37,063 bases of DNA from an uncultured Clostridia bacterium (GTDB lineage Bacteria; Bacillota; Clostridia; Oscillospirales; Acutalibacteraceae), in assembly GCA_947364045.1 (NCBI GenBank), contig CANARN010000019.1:1-37063 (forward strand), read 5' to 3'. A model generated the notes under the pieces. The model had not been told where the DNA came from. It searched no databases and saw only the letters and a program-made list of their open reading frames with translations. The position numbers and the translations under genes are program-made. Positions 21,588-29,083 of the stretch are shown one piece after another (position 1 is the first letter of the stretch; each line of letters opens with the position of its first letter).

Positions 21588-21631
21588 TATCAAAAAAGGG
21601 TGTTGCAAATCGCAACGCCCTTTTTTTGATA
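21588..21631. terminator. Bidirectional terminator between putP and the eight-gene operon
   Basis: GGGTGTTGC/GCAACGCCC stem (one G-T pair) flanked by AAAAAA and TTTTTTT, extended by TATC/GATA. It ends both convergent transcripts. Confidence 0.88.
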
Positions 21632-21646
21632 TTTTATTACATAAAA

Positions 21647-22813
21647 CTACGCAAGAACTGCTTCAGCAATTTTCTCAAGACCGTTTTCTGCGGCGTTTTC
21701 CGCATTTCTTACTACAAATTTCACAGAATTAACAGCCACTTTGCCGAGTCCGCCGAGAAAGCTGTCAAACGCAGCCTTTGTTTCCCCGTCAGTATCCTTA
21801 CAAACCTTAACAGCGCCTTTGACCGAGCTTACCAAATTACGTGAGACGTTCATAAGTCCGTCCTGACCTATGCCTTTTATCAGCTCGGTGAACCATTTGT
21901 CAATAAGCCTTCCCTCATCGTCTGTAACACGGTAAATCACCTGTTTTAAAAACTCATCAGTCAGTTTTGCAAGTCTTGAAATGTCATCTCTGAAATAAAT
22001 TTCCGTACCTTTTGTTTTCCACAAAGAAAGGTCATGCTGAATAAATCCGAGAAAATGCTTGCACCTAACCGCCTTAAAGTCGTTATCGTGTACCAAAAGC
22101 ATTCCGATAAATGAATTTGCCGGAACAAAATGACGGTAATTGGGGAGAATTTCCCTGTATTCCGAGCTTGTTGTTAAATCGTCGGTTACAAAACCCGGAC
22201 CGTCATTATTATAAAGCCGAACAATTCTCTGCCTTGTGTTTTCACAGCATTTAACGGCGCTGTAAAGAGCAATATTGCCGCCCTTTGAATGACCGCATAT
22301 AATTATATCGCCGTCATAATGCTTTGCAACATTTTCAAGATATTCCACTGCCAAAGCGTGTGACGGTATTCCTTTTCTTGTATAGAGATTCAAATCCTCC
22401 TGCCAGCCGATAAGGGAATCGTCAGTGCCTCTGAATACAACAACAGCCGTTCCGTCGGGAAGCAAAAAGGTCATTGCGCCGAACTGAAGCGGAGGTTCAA
22501 CGTCAAAAGCGCATTTACAGCCAACAACCTTCATTGAGGCAAATCGCTCGGTATCTGCCATGGCCATCATTTTAACGCTGATTTTTTTCATCAGAATAAG
22601 TCCCGGAGCTACATGGCGGTTACCGTTATAAGCAAACAGCTTTCGGCAGGCTTCTGAAAACGGAACAGGCTCATCATTAAAGCTGTCCGATACAACCTTT
22701 TCAAACGGCATATAGAGAATTTCGCAAAGCGCGATATTATCTACATCGTTAAAAGGAATTTCCGCAAAATCACGGTCGCCGTATTTTTTAATATAATTGA
22801 TTGATGTTGCCAC
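21647..22813 (-). CDS. DUF2974/Mbeg1-like alpha/beta hydrolase
   Basis: 388 residues from a GTG at 22813. AGGGGAG lies 7 nt upstream, and the resulting N-terminus (NYIKKYGDRDF, PFNDVDNIALCEILY) fits the family's usual opening; an in-frame ATG at 22894 would overlap the preceding gene and lacks a site. VVFRGTDDS is the oxyanion region. IICGHSKGGNIALYSA carries an intact GxSxG nucleophile elbow. An Asp (NNDGPGF) and a late His (FIQHDLSLW) complete a lipase-like triad. The last ~100 residues are helical. It is the last gene of the operon, 61 nt after the previous stop. Family members are annotated as lipase-like with unknown substrates. Confidence 0.82.
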   Translation of the reverse strand: MATSINYIKKYGDRDFAEIPFNDVDNIALCEILYMPFEKVVSDSFNDEPVPFSEACRKLFAYNGNRHVAPGLILMKKISVKMMAMADTERFASMKVVGCKCAFDVEPPLQFGAMTFLLPDGTAVVVFRGTDDSLIGWQEDLNLYTRKGIPSHALAVEYLENVAKHYDGDIIICGHSKGGNIALYSAVKCCENTRQRIVRLYNNDGPGFVTDDLTTSSEYREILPNYRHFVPANSFIGMLLVHDNDFKAVRCKHFLGFIQHDLSLWKTKGTEIYFRDDISRLAKLTDEFLKQVIYRVTDDEGRLIDKWFTELIKGIGQDGLMNVSRNLVSSVKGAVKVCKDTDGETKAAFDSFLGGLGKVAVNSVKFVVRNAENAAENGLEKIAEAVLA

Positions 22814-22874
22814 AAAAACACTCCCCTGTAAAAAAATTATATTGATTAAAGCAGATTTTCGGTAAAAATCCGCA

Positions 22875-23819
22875 TTATTCATCCGCTTTTTCATTCAGTC
22901 CGTTAAGCCATTCGATTATATCTCCAAAAACCTCTTTACGATTTATCTCATTAAGAATTTCGTGCCGTGCGCCCTCATAAAGCTTGAGAGTTACATATTT
23001 ATGCCCTGTTTTCTTGAGGGTCTTGTAAACCTCATTAACTCCTTTTGAATAATCGCCTATTGGGTCCATTGAACCTGACATAAGTAAAATCGGCATACTC
23101 AAGGGTACGGAATTGTACCATCGCCTTGTAGAAACAGCTTTAAGCGTCAGGAAAAGCGTTTTCATTCCGCTGACGGTATATTTGTAACCGCAAAGGTCAT
23201 CTGCAATAAACTTGTCAACCTCTTTAGCATCTCTCGAAACCCAGTCACATTCGGTTCTTTTCTCCGTTTTTCTGTTATATGTGCCGAAAGCTATTGTATC
23301 AAGAAGCTCGGAACGATAATAAGGTCCGTTCTGCTTTATAAGCGTATTGGCAAGCTGAATTCCTATGCTCAAAGCAGGGTTCTGACCGCTTGTGCCGGTA
23401 TAAATCACGCCGTCAAGCAAATAGCCGTATTTTGCAGTATATTTCCGCGCAATAAGAGAACCCATTCCGTGTCCGAGCAAATACAGCGGTAAATCATTAT
23501 ATTCGCTCTTTATAATATCCGTGAGGGTTTTCATATCCTCAACGAACGCTTCTTCACCGTTTTCTCCGAAATAGCCGAGCATATCCCTTTCCGCAACAGA
23601 AGACCCATGCCCGACATGGTCGCTTATGAACACGGCGTATCCGTTTTTACAAAGCTCCAGCGCAAAACGCGCGTATCTGTTAGAATATTCTGCCATTCCG
23701 TGTGAAATCTGAACTACGCCCTTTATTTGACCGTAATCAATCGGCGCGGCACTTTGAGCATAAATGTCGCAAAGCCCTGACGCTGACGGGAACGTATATT
23801 CCTTCGTTAAAAATTCCAA
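22875..23819 (-). CDS. Alpha/beta hydrolase (lysophospholipase-like) lacking the nucleophile serine
   Basis: 314 residues, TTG start at 23819 with AGGAG 7 nt upstream. The fold matches the monoacylglycerol lipase/lysophospholipase group: VVQISHGMAEYSNRY, FISDHVGHGSS, a cap region, SGSMDPIGD (Asp252) and GARHEIL (His286). The nucleophile elbow, however, reads LLGHGMGSL: the expected GHSMG serine is Gly118 (codon GGA). Two base changes separate GGA from a TCA serine codon, so a single read error is unlikely. Ser121 lies three residues later and is not in the elbow position. The protein may therefore be a binding or regulatory pseudo-enzyme. It is the seventh gene of the operon, 21 nt after the ACS-like gene. 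Confidence 0.85.
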   Translation of the reverse strand: MEFLTKEYTFPSASGLCDIYAQSAAPIDYGQIKGVVQISHGMAEYSNRYARFALELCKNGYAVFISDHVGHGSSVAERDMLGYFGENGEEAFVEDMKTLTDIIKSEYNDLPLYLLGHGMGSLIARKYTAKYGYLLDGVIYTGTSGQNPALSIGIQLANTLIKQNGPYYRSELLDTIAFGTYNRKTEKRTECDWVSRDAKEVDKFIADDLCGYKYTVSGMKTLFLTLKAVSTRRWYNSVPLSMPILLMSGSMDPIGDYSKGVNEVYKTLKKTGHKYVTLKLYEGARHEILNEINRKEVFGDIIEWLNGLNEKADE

Positions 23820-23840
23820 GATACCACTCCTGCAAGTTTT

Positions 23841-24530
23841 TTACTTTCCTGCATTTTTAAAATGCAGCTCCTTCATACCCTCAACCTCATCGCATATTGC
23901 TTTAAGCTTGCAGGTATCACAGTCCAAATTTAGATTCCTTATTACACGGTCAAGAGCCGATGTAATTTCACGGCTTTTCTCAGACAGTGAATTAAGCGCG
24001 GTATAATTCACTGTTTTGTCTGTAATAAAGAACAGCTTAACTGCTTTTACTGCGGAATTTTCCTTATATTTTGAAATAAGCAGACTGCCTGCCTTTTCAA
24101 AAGAAATCCCCTCTTTTACCGCTTTTTTTGAAACTCTTACGTTTTCTTCACTGCTCAGCGAATTAGTACGTACCATATATCCCTTCGGGAAATAATGATA
24201 TTTAATATACTCAATTTTTTTAACAGTATCATGCGCTGTTTGCTCGTCTGAAACCGAGTCAAGCTCTATAAGACTTACGCGGGCAAATAACGTACCGTTT
24301 TTGAGGTCTTTCAGGTCTTCTCCGACAACAATTATTTCATCTTTTCCGAGTTTATCGGATGTAAACAGCTCAAAGCCTGTGCCGTGAAGCTCAAAAGCCG
24401 CTTCGCGCTGCATAACAATTTCGTTTCTTCCGACATCCTCCCAGAGCTTTCCGTGAAATGCAAAAACAGATTTGCCTTTACCGTCGATTTCACGCTGAAA
24501 TTCGCCGATTTGCTTATCAAAGAACCTCAT
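23841..24530 (-). CDS. Stand-alone acetyl-CoA-synthase middle-domain-like protein with C-terminal CxxC-x5-C
   Basis: 229 residues, no signal or membrane segment. By memory comparison it follows the middle domain of acetyl-CoA synthase (AcsB/CdhC): AAFELHGTGFELF is like the ACS PAFELVRTV strand, and DEIIVVGEDLKDLKNGT is like its EVIGPDID...EGS segment. VRVSKKAVKEGISFEKAG is like LRVSKDAVAKGFRFKNYG, and VKAVKLFFITDKTV is like VQVTIFTDEAKV. Where ACS would continue into its A-cluster domain, this protein instead ends with CDTCKLKAIC (Cys204, 207, 213) and DEVEGMKELHF. So neither the A-cluster nor the CO-channel domain is present. The ATG overlaps the preceding stop by 1 nt (TAATG). Function is unknown; CoA or Fe-S/Ni binding is possible. 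Homology is probable, role undetermined. Confidence 0.65.
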   Translation of the reverse strand: MRFFDKQIGEFQREIDGKGKSVFAFHGKLWEDVGRNEIVMQREAAFELHGTGFELFTSDKLGKDEIIVVGEDLKDLKNGTLFARVSLIELDSVSDEQTAHDTVKKIEYIKYHYFPKGYMVRTNSLSSEENVRVSKKAVKEGISFEKAGSLLISKYKENSAVKAVKLFFITDKTVNYTALNSLSEKSREITSALDRVIRNLNLDCDTCKLKAICDEVEGMKELHFKNAGK

Positions 24531-24688
24531 TAAAGCTTTCTGTCCTTTTCAAGATTGTCATAATGCTTGCCGAGCTTATCATAAACAAAGCGGACAAGCT
24601 TCATATCAAGATTAAAGAAATAAATAATAAACGTAAGCGCAAATAAGCACAAAAGTACAATTGCAATTATAATCAATGCCTTAATCAT
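24530..24688 (-). CDS. 52-residue single-pass membrane protein
   Basis: A short gene between the activase and the ACS-like protein. It opens MIKALIIIAIVLLCLFALTF, a hydrophobic helix over about residues 4-25, and continues with a charged amphipathic tail (MKLVRFVYDKLGKHYDN, then LEKDRKL). Its ATG overlaps the activase stop (ATGA) and its stop overlaps the next ATG (TAATG), so it is translationally coupled on both sides. GAAAGG lies upstream. I recognise no family. The coupling argues it is real and needed in fixed ratio with its neighbours, perhaps anchoring the complex at the membrane. Confidence 0.75.
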   Translation of the reverse strand: MIKALIIIAIVLLCLFALTFIIYFFNLDMKLVRFVYDKLGKHYDNLEKDRKL

Positions 24689-25479
24689 TTTGAAAGCCCT
24701 TTCTGCCTTGCGTATTCGGCGGCGCCGAGAGCGCCCATAAGCTGAGGGTCAATTGCAAGGTCAACAACTTTAATTTTCAATACCTTTTCAATTGCTCTTT
24801 TAAGGCCCTCGTTTTTAGCGCATCCGCCCGTAAGCGTAATGCTGTCTGTTGCGCCTGCCTTCTTTGCCATTACAAAACAGCGTTTTGCAACTGCAAGCTG
24901 AATTCCCGCAGCAATTTCATCCATAGGCTTGCCCTCGCCGACAAGAGAAATAACCTCGCTTTCGGCAAAAACAGTACACTGCGCTGTTATCGGGATTGTA
25001 TTTTTTGCTTCAAGGGAAAGCTTGCAGAATTCGGGAAGACTCATTTCAAAGGCGTTTGCCATAGCCTCAAAAAATCTGCCTGTGCCTGCGGCGCATTTGT
25101 CATTCATTGCGAAATTTTTTACTGTACCGTCCTTATCAATTGCAATGCCCTTAACGTCCTGACCGCCAATGTCGATAATCGCCTTAACCTCAGGATTTGT
25201 AACGTGAACGCCCATTGCATGACAGCTTATTTCCGAGATATTTTCATCGGCAAAGGGAACTTTATTTCTGCCGTAGCCTGTGCCTATAAGATATGAAAGC
25301 TGCTCAGCAGAATTAAGCTCCGCAACCTTTTCAATTGCCTCGCCAAGCGCCAATTCCGCGCTTTTAACAGGATTTATTTTACTTCTTACTGTCGCATCGG
25401 CAACCATTTTGCCGTTTTCATCAAGAATTACACATTTTGCGTAGGTGGAGCCTACGTCGCATCCGCCGAAATATTTCAT
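24685..25479 (-). CDS. Acyl-CoA dehydratase activase-type ATPase (HgdC/BcrA-like, ASKHA)
   Basis: 264 residues, usual HgdC length. The homodimeric activase carries one [4Fe-4S] cluster between subunits and fires electrons into its partner on ATP hydrolysis. Motifs: GGCDVGSTYAKCVILD (phosphate-1), GTGYGRN, DIGGQDVKGI (phosphate-2), NDKCAAGTGRFFE (cluster ligand Cys129), TAQCTVFAESE (ligand Cys168), and LTGGCAKNEGL (adenosine motif). Start: the ATG at 25479 behind AAAGGAG; the longer frame to 25536 overlaps the upstream gene without a site. It lies 13 nt after the large subunit, as expected for its redox partner. Confidence 0.93.
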   Translation of the reverse strand: MKYFGGCDVGSTYAKCVILDENGKMVADATVRSKINPVKSAELALGEAIEKVAELNSAEQLSYLIGTGYGRNKVPFADENISEISCHAMGVHVTNPEVKAIIDIGGQDVKGIAIDKDGTVKNFAMNDKCAAGTGRFFEAMANAFEMSLPEFCKLSLEAKNTIPITAQCTVFAESEVISLVGEGKPMDEIAAGIQLAVAKRCFVMAKKAGATDSITLTGGCAKNEGLKRAIEKVLKIKVVDLAIDPQLMGALGAAEYARQKGLSK

Positions 25480-25492
25480 TAGTTTTTCTCCT

Positions 25493-27043
25493 TTACCAAG
25501 CCATTGTATCATCAAAATCAACAAGAGTGGGGTCAACAGGCTCTTCGCCGAGAACCGTTGTCATATATTTGTTTATCTGCTCACGCATATCACGGCGTGA
25601 AATTGTTCTCGGGTCCATAAGGTCCTGCGGAACCCAGATAAAGCTTATATCCCGTTCTCTTGCCTGGTCGTCAAATATACCCACAAGACCGTCCATACCC
25701 TTACAGGAAATCTGGTCATACATAATAACCATATCCGCATTAAACTCGTCAACTATTCGCCAAAGCTCATCAACAACATTTTGATAACCGCCCTTGGTGT
25801 GCTTTCTCATTGTTGTTCGCTGAAGAGTTTTCGCATAAGTTGCAAGCGCCTTTTCTTCATCTGACGTGTCATATTTTATGTAGGAAATCATTGTTTCCAT
25901 ATCCATAACAACATTAATTCCCCAACAGTTTTCAAGCCAGTTTGCAAGGCTTGTGTAATAGTTCGCGGGACAGGACCAGACAATAGCTCTGTGGCGCATT
26001 TCCTTTGAAACCTTTTCTTTCTTTCGGAAGCCCTTCATCATAAGCTTATTAACCTTTTTGTCGGTTTTTGGATAAAGCGTGTTCATTCCGCCTGAAATGT
26101 GAAAATAGAAAAGCCTGTAAAGCCAAAAGGTTGCGCCCGTCATTTGCGGATAGTCGGTTTTGTTTATATCCCATTTCTGCATTTCGTAATCAAGCTGAAG
26201 GTTGTACCTTTCCATAGCCGAAGAAAATGCGTCCCAGCTGAATTTAACGCCTGTCTGCTCTTCGATAAATCTTATTGCAGATTTAACCTCTTCAACGGCA
26301 TATTCCTGCGCATCCTCACCGTTGTAGCGAAGCGGAACATTTATCGGGTGAGTCGGAATATTAAAACGTCTGTCAACAAAGCTTGAATTGATAACCGAGC
26401 CGTCACAGGGCATATTACACGTAAGCGCGCATTTGCCGAAAAGCGGATAGTCGTCGTTTATTGCAACGCCCGCCTCAGCAGAGGGCAACGGGCAAACATC
26501 TGCGGGAACGCCGTAGCTTTCGGTAATATCAAGGTAATGAGGCGTTATGTTTTGGTCGACCATTGACGTTAAGAAAATCGGAATAGTAGAAACGTGAACG
26601 TCATGAAGTCCCGGGAAGCCCGCTGTAAGCTCAGAGGAAAAAATCTCGTCAACAAGTATTGTCCTGTCGTCCATTTTAGACTTTTTGTGGAAATGCTTAT
26701 CATTTGAAAGCAGATAACGGATTAAATCCGTTGTTGGCTGAACAAGCCCGTTAAAATGAAGATGTGCAATACGAAGATGCGTGCCGCGAAGACCCTCAGT
26801 GTGTCTGTCAACCCAAGCGGGAGCTGAAAGATAGGACGCCATCCAGCGATAATTCCAAAGCCCCTTAACCGTTGAAACAGGAGCCTTGAGCGTCATTACG
26901 ATTATATTTTTCCACGTGATAAGCCAGCGGTAATAATCGTACATCGTGTCCCTAAGGCCTCTCCATTCGCGGTGCTTTAAAATTCCTGTTTTATCTTTAT
27001 GAAGCTTGCCGAGATTTTTCGGCTCGTTAACCCAAAAGCCCAT
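25493..27043 (-). CDS. 2-hydroxyacyl-CoA dehydratase-family large subunit (516 residues)
   Basis: The C-terminal ~350 residues fit the HgdA/BcrC/double-cubane superfamily. Rossmann-like halves show VWSCPANYY and WLENCWGINVVMDMETM, then NADMVIMYDQISCKGMDG and a terminal conserved block. Candidate cluster cysteines are C184 (ADVCPLP), C205/C209/C213 (KCALTCNMPC), C358 and C447. The C205-C213 set is richer than the three ligands usual per subunit. The ~150-residue N-terminal extension (Trp/Tyr-rich, HREWRGLRDTMYDYYRW) is unlike classical dehydratases. ATG behind AGGGGG, 11 nt after the small subunit. No CoA-transferase or hydroxyacid dehydrogenase is nearby, so dehydration of a hydroxyacyl-CoA is not implied. 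Confidence 0.82.
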   Translation of the reverse strand: MGFWVNEPKNLGKLHKDKTGILKHREWRGLRDTMYDYYRWLITWKNIIVMTLKAPVSTVKGLWNYRWMASYLSAPAWVDRHTEGLRGTHLRIAHLHFNGLVQPTTDLIRYLLSNDKHFHKKSKMDDRTILVDEIFSSELTAGFPGLHDVHVSTIPIFLTSMVDQNITPHYLDITESYGVPADVCPLPSAEAGVAINDDYPLFGKCALTCNMPCDGSVINSSFVDRRFNIPTHPINVPLRYNGEDAQEYAVEEVKSAIRFIEEQTGVKFSWDAFSSAMERYNLQLDYEMQKWDINKTDYPQMTGATFWLYRLFYFHISGGMNTLYPKTDKKVNKLMMKGFRKKEKVSKEMRHRAIVWSCPANYYTSLANWLENCWGINVVMDMETMISYIKYDTSDEEKALATYAKTLQRTTMRKHTKGGYQNVVDELWRIVDEFNADMVIMYDQISCKGMDGLVGIFDDQARERDISFIWVPQDLMDPRTISRRDMREQINKYMTTVLGEEPVDPTLVDFDDTMAW

Positions 27044-27054
27044 TATTCCGCCCC

Positions 27055-28239
27055 CTAAGCTTTTTGAATTTTCTTGATTTCAAGACTTTCAACAAAAGCC
27101 TGAACGCGTGTTCTGAGCTGTCCTGAGGCGTTGGCAGTGTACTGCCTGTCGACCGTTACGGACGGAATTCCGAACTCATTTGTCATAATGTGAGAGGCAA
27201 GCGCGCGTTCATAGCCCCAATACTCGCAGAATTTAATCTGCTCATAAATTACGCCGTCAGCGTGATAGTCATTTACAAGCTGTTTAACGTATTCTTTTCT
27301 GCCTCGTACTTTATCCTGCGACATATATCTCGGACACTGGCAGGTTTTCATATAGTGAAGAACAATCTGTTCAAGCACGTTATGCTCATCGGTAAGGCGT
27401 ATCTCCTCACGCCCGGGAAGAGAGCCGAAGCAATAGCGGTCGGCAACTACCAAAGCGCCCGACTCCTCAATAAGCTTTGTAAAATCGGGGTCGTCCATTT
27501 CTGAGCCGACAACAACCACCTTCGCCCTGTAATTTTTCTTTTCGTCGGGAACCCTTGTTTTAAGCTCCTCGGCTGTTTCACGAAGCTTGTCGATAATTAA
27601 ATACTTAGGACAGCAATATGTAATAAGGTTCAGTACGTGAAATTCGTAGCCCGTAATTCTCGGATTTTCTTCTTTTCTGTATTCGCCGATTTCGGTTATA
27701 AGCCTGCAAATCTCATTATGCTCCTCAACCGCTTTGCGAAGAGAGCTTTCGCTTATATCAACTCCGTAAACCTCATAAAGCCTGTCAAGCACCTTAGTTT
27801 GCATTTGGTTTACATAGTGCTTCACCGTGTGCGGCTCGATTTTAAAAGGAATGTCGGCAATAGATACAAAAAACTTGTCATTGGCAACAAGGTTAAGAAT
27901 TTCAAAATGCTCATATGTTCTGTTCATTTCGGAGCAGGATTCCGAGCCAATAAGCGCTGAAAGAAAGTTGTAGCCGCCTTCAATTCCGCGTTCCAGCAAA
28001 GCCTTTGAATATCCGCAAAGGTAAGAACTCATATAATACGTCGCAATGTCCATTGAGCCTGTTCGCGGCGCTCGAAGGCGAACCGAAAAGCAGTTATCAA
28101 CATTGAGCAAAACCTCGGGAATATGGTAGCAGGTGTATGCCACTGCCTTTTTGCCGTCGGCAATAGCCTTGTCTACAAGCTCATTTTTAGCTTCCTGTAA
28201 TAAATTCTCAAAATAAATGAGATGTTTTAAATCCTTCAT
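27055..28239 (-). CDS. 2-hydroxyacyl-CoA dehydratase-family small subunit (HgdB-like, 394 residues)
   Basis: Clear HgdB/BadD/BcrB-type protein. YTCYHIPEVLL and the LRAPRTGS loop are near the N-terminus. SSYLCGYSKALLE (C75) and GSESCSEMNRTYE (C102) follow, then YEQIKFCEYWGYE (C338), together forming the likely [4Fe-4S] or double-cubane ligand set. The terminal DRQYTANASGQLRTRVQAF is the family signature. A central Rossmann segment reads AKVVVVGSEMDDPDF. AAAGGGG precedes the ATG, 14 nt after the CooC-like gene. With the next gene it should form the heterodimeric acceptor of the activase. The substrate is unknown. Confidence 0.88.
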   Translation of the reverse strand: MKDLKHLIYFENLLQEAKNELVDKAIADGKKAVAYTCYHIPEVLLNVDNCFSVRLRAPRTGSMDIATYYMSSYLCGYSKALLERGIEGGYNFLSALIGSESCSEMNRTYEHFEILNLVANDKFFVSIADIPFKIEPHTVKHYVNQMQTKVLDRLYEVYGVDISESSLRKAVEEHNEICRLITEIGEYRKEENPRITGYEFHVLNLITYCCPKYLIIDKLRETAEELKTRVPDEKKNYRAKVVVVGSEMDDPDFTKLIEESGALVVADRYCFGSLPGREEIRLTDEHNVLEQIVLHYMKTCQCPRYMSQDKVRGRKEYVKQLVNDYHADGVIYEQIKFCEYWGYERALASHIMTNEFGIPSVTVDRQYTANASGQLRTRVQAFVESLEIKKIQKA

Positions 28240-28253
28240 AGCCTTCCCCTTTA

Positions 28254-29018
28254 TTATAGAACGCCTAAATTTTCAAGCGCTGTGCGTACACCGCATACAA
28301 TCGGCGAAGCGCTCGGTAGCTCCAGAATGTTTTTGCCCTCAATATCAAATGACGCCAAATTTTTATCTGACATAATGTAGGACAGCACGGGAATGTCCCC
28401 CGTATTTATAAGTGGTATAATACTTTTGTCCGGAATTCTGTTAACAATTGCGCCTGTTTTTTCATACATAACAAGGCTGTCCGCAACCTCTTTGACGGTT
28501 TTAATTACTCCGCAGCCCTTTTTGCTCGCATCCGTCACTAAAATTAAATGCGTTACCTTTTCCATTACCCTTCGGTTAATCTGCTCAATTCCCGCCTCGC
28601 CGTCTATTACAACGTAATCAAAATCTGCGGACAGAACAGATATAACCTCTTTAAGATATGCATTGATTTTACAGTAACAGCCTGCGCTTTCGGGTCTGCC
28701 AACGGCAATAAATGCAAATTTATCGGTTTCAATAAGAGCGTCAAACATTTTGAACCGCGCGTCGCCCAGTGTTTCAATAGCGGCGCGCACCTTACCGTTC
28801 TCTACCTCGTTTACAAACTCCTTGCGTATATCGTCAATGGTCATTTTAACGTCTATCCCCAAAGCAGTTGAAAGACCCACAGCAGGGTCTGCATCTATAG
28901 CTAAAATTCGCTTATCGGGATATTTTTCCGTTAAAAGCTTTACTACCGTGCCGGAAATTGAGGTTTTGCCTACTCCGCCCTTTCCCGCAACAGCAATTAT
29001 CTTCGCTTTTTGCTCCAT
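28254..29018 (-). CDS. CooC-like P-loop ATPase with CxC metal motif
   Basis: 254 residues from the ATG at 29018 (a TTG at 29024 is possible). Deviant Walker A AGKGGVGKTS (11-20), IDADPAVGLSTALG, and FDYVVIDGEAGIEQ place it in the SIMIBI/MinD group. GRPESAGCYCKINAYLK (Cys114-x-Cys116) is the CooC/AcsF signature whose cysteines bind Ni or Zn at the dimer interface. Family members insert nickel into CODH (CooC) or ACS (AcsF). It is the first gene of the eight-gene operon, with its own promoter. Finding it with HgdB-type subunits and an ACS-like fragment, but no CODH, suggests it matures a different metallocentre. Confidence 0.9.
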   Translation of the reverse strand: MEQKAKIIAVAGKGGVGKTSISGTVVKLLTEKYPDKRILAIDADPAVGLSTALGIDVKMTIDDIRKEFVNEVENGKVRAAIETLGDARFKMFDALIETDKFAFIAVGRPESAGCYCKINAYLKEVISVLSADFDYVVIDGEAGIEQINRRVMEKVTHLILVTDASKKGCGVIKTVKEVADSLVMYEKTGAIVNRIPDKSIIPLINTGDIPVLSYIMSDKNLASFDIEGKNILELPSASPIVCGVRTALENLGVL

Positions 29019-29054: not shown

Positions 29055-29083
29055 ATTATATCAAATATTGCATTGTTTTTCAA
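29055..29083 (-). promoter_or_regulatory. Promoter of the CooC/HgdB/ACS-like operon
   Basis: TTGAAA (29083-29078), 17-nt spacer, perfect TATAAT (29060-29055) on the minus strand. The predicted start near 29048 gives a 30-nt leader. No operator was recognised. Confidence 0.75.

Follow-up and report, generated by a model that had tools for sequence, protein, structure and literature searches.

What kind of enzyme brings together a nickel-insertion ATPase, an ATP-driven source of low-potential electrons and a piece of acetyl-CoA synthase (ACS)? The question is raised by eight open reading frames (ORFs), all on the minus strand, at 21647-29018 of a 37,063-nucleotide stretch of DNA (the window; contig CANARN010000019.1, assembly GCA_947364045.1) from an uncultured Clostridia bacterium of the Acutalibacteraceae. 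From sequence comparison we propose, with a probability of roughly 0.6, that six of these genes encode a multi-electron reductase that is driven by ATP, tethered to the membrane and joined to a nickel subunit, and that belongs to the class I benzoyl-CoA reductase (BCR)/double-cubane family. In gene order they specify a CooC-like nickel-insertion ATPase of 254 residues (28254-29018); two HGD-D (PF06050) proteins, a small BzdN-like subunit of 394 residues (HGD394; 27055-28239) and a large, predicted substrate subunit of 516 (HGD516; 25493-27043); a 264-residue ASKHA ATP-dependent activase (24685-25479); a 52-residue protein, S52 (24530-24688); and a 229-residue protein, mini-ACS (23841-24530), consisting of the ACS middle domain with a C-x2-C-x5-C tail. 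The intergenic gaps along the whole row are 14, 11, 13, -4, -1, 21 and 63 nt, the last counted from a GTG start at 22811. A preliminary description of the window, made from its letters, had read these same-strand genes as an eight-gene operon, with family assignments in which Pfam, NCBIfam and structure matches now agree; the ORFs are real, but the conserved unit is the six core genes, and the lipase-like pair at the end of the row is a local addition.

For the metals, membrane site, docking, electron path and reaction we infer the following scheme. The activase would spend ATP to drive low-potential electrons into an [8Fe-9S] double cubane of HGD394, and from there they would pass to an open three-cysteine [4Fe-4S] site of HGD516, where the substrate would bind. 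S52 would keep the HGD394/HGD516 pair at the membrane. Mini-ACS would receive nickel from CooC, aided by the protein CooT and a small histidine-rich protein, and would attach to the reductase, serving there as a Ni or Ni-Fe-S subunit in electron delivery or catalysis.

The argument starts from what the genomes show directly: gene content, its conservation, the co-inheritance of two modules, the ligand residues, the homology to ACS and the neighbourhood of nickel factors. Among 80 loci collected with a profile of HGD516 (the named loci), the six core genes lie in order in 56, two of which also have an esterase-like gene; CooC has been relocated beside mini-ACS in ten, and at least one core gene is missing in 14. 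Both CooC and mini-ACS are present in 50 of the 52 named loci with room on both sides, and the remaining two (L082 and L100), which lack them locally, have the pair side by side elsewhere in their genomes. For six genomes whose locus has no mini-ACS, the search was extended to the rest of the genome, and four proved to have one. Within the window's genus, mini-ACS, HGD516 and any HGD-D gene mark the identical 17 of 36 genomes (the window's own counted), although in one of the 17, G032, the mini-ACS and HGD516 matches are both fragments at contig ends; neither protein was found in 23 genomes of other families, 59 relatives being searched in total. HGD-D proteins of other kinds occur in two genomes from other families, and the window's genome has just the operon's two. 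The preliminary description had staked its reading on the CooC-like and ACS-like genes being conserved with the dehydratase-type genes in relatives, and so they are. The sampling covers one phylum, mostly through draft genomes.

Further afield, mini-ACS was detected at E 1e-15 in five of 291 genomes of the window's class, the window counted. Three of the other four, from two other families, keep the order CooC, small HGD-D, large HGD-D, activase, S52, mini-ACS intact; their CooC is 55-63% and their mini-ACS 26-40% identical to the window's. The fourth genome has a short contig bearing the final four genes, of which the first is truncated. In a different class, that of genome G217, mini-ACS is present in six of 97 genomes, the other matches being full ACS or longer frames plus one 145-residue fragment in G528. 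All six have activase, mini-ACS and CooC in a row, with two activases where the contig reaches, and three of their loci also contain the HGD-D pair, with acyl-CoA dehydrogenases upstream. Between those dehydrogenases and the HGD-D pair lie related proteins of 220-600 residues that have no confident Pfam family (L173 14187-16686, L214 3506-4909, L210 3665-5639). Mini-ACS is also found in 27 of 79 genomes of the Butyrivibrio genus, where the neighbourhoods of 13 were read, and in four of 40 genomes of G711's family. Together these data show that the cluster is a conserved system of some gut and rumen bacteria, not a chance gene mix. Spread by plasmids was considered separately and rejected, a search returning one weak match for the large HGD-D subunit (Rhizobium) and none for the window's mini-ACS.

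We next turn to the residues that would hold the metal clusters. HGD394 matches PF06050 at E 4.6e-94, and its C37, C75, C102, C270, C302 and C338, counted along the alignment, fall on BzdN Cys36, 73, 100, 263, 293 and 327, which the available passages of PMC11971306 name as [8Fe-9S] ligands. All six are invariant in ten diverse small subunits and kept in 73 or 74 of 74 members of the close clade, and HGD394 is predicted to carry the double cubane of class I BCR and DCCP reductases. HGD516 matches the same family at E 3.9e-45 over residues 167-492, behind an N-terminal extension of about 165 residues. Its C184, C213 and C447 are the only cysteines invariant in ten diverse large subunits; for one of the ten subunit pairs (L035) the contig ends and linkage to mini-ACS is not visible. 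These three cysteines align with cysteines of MbdO and/or DCCP, with no direct alignment to BzdO, and we take them as counterparts of BzdO Cys95, 128 and 380, given as [4Fe-4S] ligands in the excerpts consulted; on that assignment the large subunit would have the open [4Fe-4S] site of class I BCR and DCCP reductases. The activase (PF01869, E 1e-56; TIGR00241, 215 bits, cut-off 125.4) has the cluster-cysteine motif NDKCAAGTGRF in 74 of 76 complete named copies and retains both cysteine motifs, as expected of the two-cysteine cluster site of ASKHA activases in these reductases.

By family knowledge, a double cubane with an open [4Fe-4S] site speaks for net multi-electron reduction over dehydration, and the cysteine ligands point towards the ATP-powered Fe-S reductase that the preliminary description had suspected. 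Its HgdB/double-cubane label can be narrowed: HGD394 is BzdN-like with the full double-cubane ligand set, which makes an HgdA/B dehydratase a less fitting model. Nor does the locus match a known, characterised dehydratase or reductase cluster: no curated equivalog cut-off for one was reached by the gene set, and all scores lie far below (for the 2-hydroxyacyl-CoA dehydratase models, HadC 89.9 against 700 bits and HadB 25.3 against 750). The large subunit also departs from BCR proper, since the residue three after C213 is Ser216 where BzdO has His131, a catalytic histidine without a counterpart here.

Mini-ACS is the part that ties this reductase to nickel chemistry. It is the single PF03598 (CdhC) match in the window's genome, at E 1e-7 and 32.4 bits against a cut-off of 24. 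An hhalign comparison of 21 mini-ACS with 50 full ACS gave 97.7% and, as a single comparison, E 1.8e-12 over 169 columns; the mini-ACS profile covers the ACS middle domain into the start of the A-cluster, where its C-x2-C falls on the C-x2-C of the A-cluster. The 50 full ACS remained from 53 loci fetched after L204 (547 residues, under the 600-residue limit) and the wrong-frame ORFs L144 and L145 were dropped. They have six conserved cysteine columns, of which mini-ACS does not possess the full set: its third cysteine stands at x5 rather than x8 and was left unaligned by the program, and the protein ends before the fourth cysteine and the C-G-C. What remains is strictly kept. Across 14 diverse mini-ACS, the others 22-49% identical to the window's, nine residues are invariant, including the three cysteines of C-x2-C-x5-C, and this motif is present in 69 of 70 complete named copies, the other having an ambiguous residue at the first cysteine. 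Deduplication reduced the 70 to 66, of which alignment A7 takes 60; alignment A8 has 40 rows, and A2 and A6 have 16 each. In an unrooted tree, 100/100 support was obtained for the branch that splits 19 mini-ACS from 17 ACS (every third of the 50); L310 and L311 drew a long-branch warning. The invariant cysteine triad and the single group apart from full ACS lead us to reject a decayed ACS remnant. The earlier label of an ACS-like fragment was correct as to homology, but by these comparisons mini-ACS is a distinct group of proteins of about 230-280 residues.

Two genomes of G711's family encode a divergent mini-ACS of about 276 residues, extended at the N-terminus and with an unchanged C-x2-C-x5-C motif (L310 9635-10465, L311 8631-9461); HGD-D and activase genes accompany it, and a chemotaxis-receptor-like gene lies next to it. 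An S-adenosylmethionine (SAM) methyltransferase of the Methyltransf_11 family is encoded near the operon in 12 of the 80 named loci, just after mini-ACS in L118, L120, L123, L128, L130, L132 and L133; the best NCBIfam name for the L120 copy is the corrinoid protein-associated CpaM, below cut-off.

Given the overlap of these protein families with known enzymes, the locus could in principle be an ordinary 2-hydroxyacyl-CoA dehydratase or BCR cluster beside unrelated remnants of a lost CO dehydrogenase (CODH)/ACS operon, and PF03598 is indeed widespread in the phylum (found in 113 genomes of a draw of 398). We regard this as highly improbable. The PF03598 proteins in that draw are frames of at least 360 residues, except for the window's and G217's, and both of these short forms occur with the HGD-D set. 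The remnant explanation is already contradicted by equivalog cut-offs missed by far and by a gene order conserved across families together with an invariant cysteine triad; the six double-cubane ligands and the 100/100 branch also argue against it.

Evidence for nickel begins with the ATPase. Its best solved-structure match is CooC (3kje, E 4.8e-16), with its own CYC aligned to the CYC of CooC; the CxC is invariant in ten diverse members, and among 62 complete named copies KGGVGKT is present in all and GCxC in 61. This P-loop and metal motif are those of CooC, and nickel binding and transfer are predicted. According to the portions of PMC6006190 available to us, CooC, CooT and CooJ are nickel factors of CODH. 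A pattern search placed CooT between S52 and CooC in 11 of the 80 named loci (one copy checked against PF10133 scored 55.7 bits, cut-off 27), and a 77-83-residue protein with a His-rich N-terminus is encoded directly ahead of the HGD-D genes in eight loci. The two genes are adjacent in all seven loci read, and of 13 Butyrivibrio-genus loci read, 11 have one or both close to the operon. Among the genomes with a split cluster, L139 shows His-rich, CooT, CooC and mini-ACS as consecutive genes; in L140 neither the CooT nor the His-rich gene was seen beside the CooC/mini-ACS pair. CooT is associated with the system within the genus (Fisher p 0.016, shared phylogeny ignored) and was not found in the 23 genomes of other families. 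CooT and the His-rich protein add support for nickel beyond the preliminary description, and mini-ACS is probably the client of these factors. In the genus genome G009, a His-rich and CooT pair is present (L263 7420-7860), and neither a mini-ACS nor an HGD-D gene was found; loss of the system, a gap in the draft and another client are the alternatives.

A CooC-type ATPase might also serve without any nickel subunit in the working enzyme, CooC and mini-ACS merely inserting a metal or an Fe-S cluster into HGD516 or HGD394. CooC is an assembly ATPase, as far as the consulted text of PMC6006190 goes, and HGD516 has two further cysteines, C358, which 79 of 80 close-clade members keep, and C373, which all 80 keep, so its site may be modified. 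These cysteines, however, are not invariant among the ten diverse large subunits. CooC is known to serve CODH/ACS proteins, and in the window's genome the search found one PF03598 protein, mini-ACS, and no Ni-CODH. To our knowledge neither BzdNO nor DCCP needs factors of the CooC/mini-ACS type, which also counts against a pure assembly role, and we consider such a role unlikely.

How the nickel proteins relate to the reductase is suggested by their inheritance. Distance matrices from 57 loci correlate at 0.86 for HGD394 and HGD516 and at 0.77 for mini-ACS and CooC, and at 0.29-0.64 for other pairs; CooC and HGD516 reach 0.32, the highest value for any pair in 500 permutations being 0.23. In split clusters CooC and mini-ACS remain together, and in two split genomes S52 stays with the HGD-D pair. 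The cluster therefore consists of two modules, HGD394/HGD516/activase/S52 and CooC/mini-ACS, that can occupy separate loci. The preliminary description had placed both machineries in one complex; they are conserved together, and the picture is refined to two modules able to sit apart. S52 has one hydrophobic stretch and a conserved charged tail (alignments including seven diverse members), its gene shares 4 nt with one neighbour and 1 nt with the other, and a paralogue follows the second HGD-D pair in all 13 Butyrivibrio-genus loci read. It is probably the membrane anchor of the HGD-D pair, and the association with the membrane earlier suggested for the small coupled protein is now the prediction for a conserved one-helix protein that travels with these subunits. 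Second HGD-D pairs stand beside the operon at L270 1137-4336, L295 15530-18734 and L210 11300-14706, with their own S52 paralogue in the Butyrivibrio genus and their own activase, 57.5% identical to the window's, in G496.

The separate behaviour of CooC and mini-ACS could also be expected if the roles were reversed, with the double-cubane complex as reductive activator of the mini-ACS nickel site and substrate chemistry at nickel, as in the ATP-driven reactivation of methyl-coenzyme M reductase or corrinoid proteins. Activase/HGD-D modules do supply very low-potential electrons, in the literature extracts at hand. The activase scores 94 bits with the methanogenesis marker 15 model (cut-off 455.75), and the SAM methyltransferase gene near 12 of 80 operons would fit as well. 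This arrangement nevertheless seems rather unlikely to us: HGD516 keeps a three-cysteine site like that of the substrate-binding BzdO, the second HGD-D pair has no mini-ACS of its own in any of the 13 Butyrivibrio-genus loci read, and mini-ACS is without the known nickel ligand motif.

Several observations weigh against a reductase with a nickel subunit. Mini-ACS lacks the fourth [4Fe-4S] cysteine and the C-G-C nickel motif of ACS, so that a normal A-cluster is impossible in this protein alone. In the window's genome the CooT and His-rich genes lie away from the operon, as a pair on another contig (about C31:11910-12389), and CooT occurs in just seven of 17 system-bearing genomes of the genus and in one genome, G009, of the 19 that lack the system. 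No family was matched by the His-rich protein, whose likeness to CooJ is one of composition and neighbourhood. Mini-ACS was not found in two of the six genomes searched for it, the drafts G455 and G457. Finally, the distance correlations, like the Fisher test, ignore shared phylogeny.

Which genes lie next to the cluster depends on the lineage: close relatives of the window have lipase-like genes, the distant class has acyl-CoA dehydrogenases, and the Butyrivibrio genus has an Oxidored_FMN flavoenzyme. The gene for this flavoenzyme comes immediately after mini-ACS in all 13 loci read; the protein is nearest to BaiCD and bilirubin reductase, below their cut-offs. Three of four loci in G711's family also have an Oxidored_FMN gene, at 2.5-4.5 kb from the cluster. 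This shared acyl/ene theme allows us to raise the idea of biohydrogenation: a nickel-dependent, ATP-driven ene reductase that would act on unsaturated fatty or acyl chains by saturating their isolated C=C bonds and, in Butyrivibrio proteoclasticus, would supply the missing vaccenate-to-stearate step of the rumen. We consider it quite doubtful. One genome of the genus, G858, is B. proteoclasticus B316 (a 4-kb contig piece is 100% identical to plasmid NC_014390.1) and carries the system, whereas no mini-ACS match was found in G854, which has 6 kb at 100% to a B. fibrisolvens plasmid. This contrast and the flavoenzyme are hints, as are the lipase-like genes after the core in the window, the acyl-CoA dehydrogenases before it in the distant class, and the membrane site suggested by S52. 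We know of no biohydrogenator in the window's genus or the distant class, and two named genomes cannot establish a trait link when 27 of 79 in the genus are carriers. In the accessible parts of PMC7339423, PMC2914790 and PMC4901502, B. proteoclasticus is the only stearate former among strains tested or known. The text seen of PMC4478896 describes the butyrivibrio fatty acid oxidoreductase as not searchable in genomes and missing from databases, though a sequence was reported, and gives rumenate reduction, an earlier step, as NADH-dependent with 1:1 stoichiometry and without a hint of ATP use.

The remaining features of the window's operon are local. The seventh gene (22875-23819, minus strand) encodes a 314-residue lipase/esterase-like Hydrolase_4 protein (PF12146, E 4.9e-46) and the eighth (21647-22811 from the GTG, or from an ATG at 22894; minus strand) an Mbeg1-like/lipase-3-like protein (PF11187, E 1.3e-60). 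Each is present in four of the 80 named loci, which rules them out as core parts. The promoter and terminator of the preliminary description were both found again as consensus matches. The first, TTGAAA-17-TATAAT at 29055-29083 on the minus strand (11/12), is by itself weak proof, because the region holds 26 such sites against 16.4 +/- 4.4 in shuffles; the second is a hairpin of 15 pairs with a T run at 21592-21626, between convergent genes, where terminator-like sites number 14 against 9.0 +/- 3.4. An Rfam scan at gathering thresholds gave no match, and a tRNA search found none. In another locus (L272 2834-4775), two ORFs lie just upstream of the operon, and the second is a sigma-54-type regulator with PrdR as best match, below cut-off.

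As far as our searches show, no system is known in which nickel insertion by CooC/CooT works together with ATP-driven electron transfer through a double cubane, and the gene set was not found described in the literature searched, open-licence papers seen in part, which is no proof of absence. If our proposal is true, a conserved operon in which a truncated ACS joins the two would put the ACS fold to a new use and would point to a nickel site beyond those of the nickel enzymes known so far. Should an unsaturated fatty acid prove to be the substrate, these would be genes for a rumen lipid step that affects milk and meat fat. The question is open to testing because one carrier, B316, is a cultured rumen strain.

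Among known systems, the BZD-type class I BCR (BzdNOPQ, PDB 8s02) resembles this one in its two HGD-D subunits with an ATP activase, its six [8Fe-9S] ligand cysteines in the small subunit and its three cluster cysteines in the large. It differs in that the window has one activase (two in the distant class), Ser216 at the position of BzdO His131, an N-terminal extension on the large subunit, and CooC, mini-ACS and S52 in addition; the score with the BzdN model, 105, stays below the cut-off of 453.8. DCCP, the double-cubane cluster protein, and its reductase (PDB 6eno, 7yyl) share the double-cubane ligands and the activase partner, but HGD394 scores 146.8 with DCCP against a cut-off of 350, and we know of no nickel factors for DCCP, itself a homodimer in the descriptions available. 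ACS (AcsB/CdhC) with CooC/AcsF has in common the middle (A2) domain, the first C-x2-C of the A-cluster and the CooC partner; unlike it, mini-ACS has no CODH-binding domain, no fourth Fe-S cysteine and no C-G-C nickel motif, and no Ni-CODH (TIGR01702) was found in the 36 genomes of the window's genus. The putative isoprene reductase operon of Acetobacterium wieringae (PMC10134865, seen in extract) likewise pairs a reductase with dedicated nickel chaperones, but these are HypA and HypB, alongside an FAD oxidoreductase and a ferredoxin, and the extract names no HGD-D, activase or ACS part. Compared with the CooC-CooT-CooJ set of Rhodospirillum rubrum, as far as the text of PMC6006190 was available, the neighbouring client here is mini-ACS and not CODH, and the histidines are N-terminal where those of CooJ are C-terminal; in both, CooC, CooT and a small His-rich protein lie close together.

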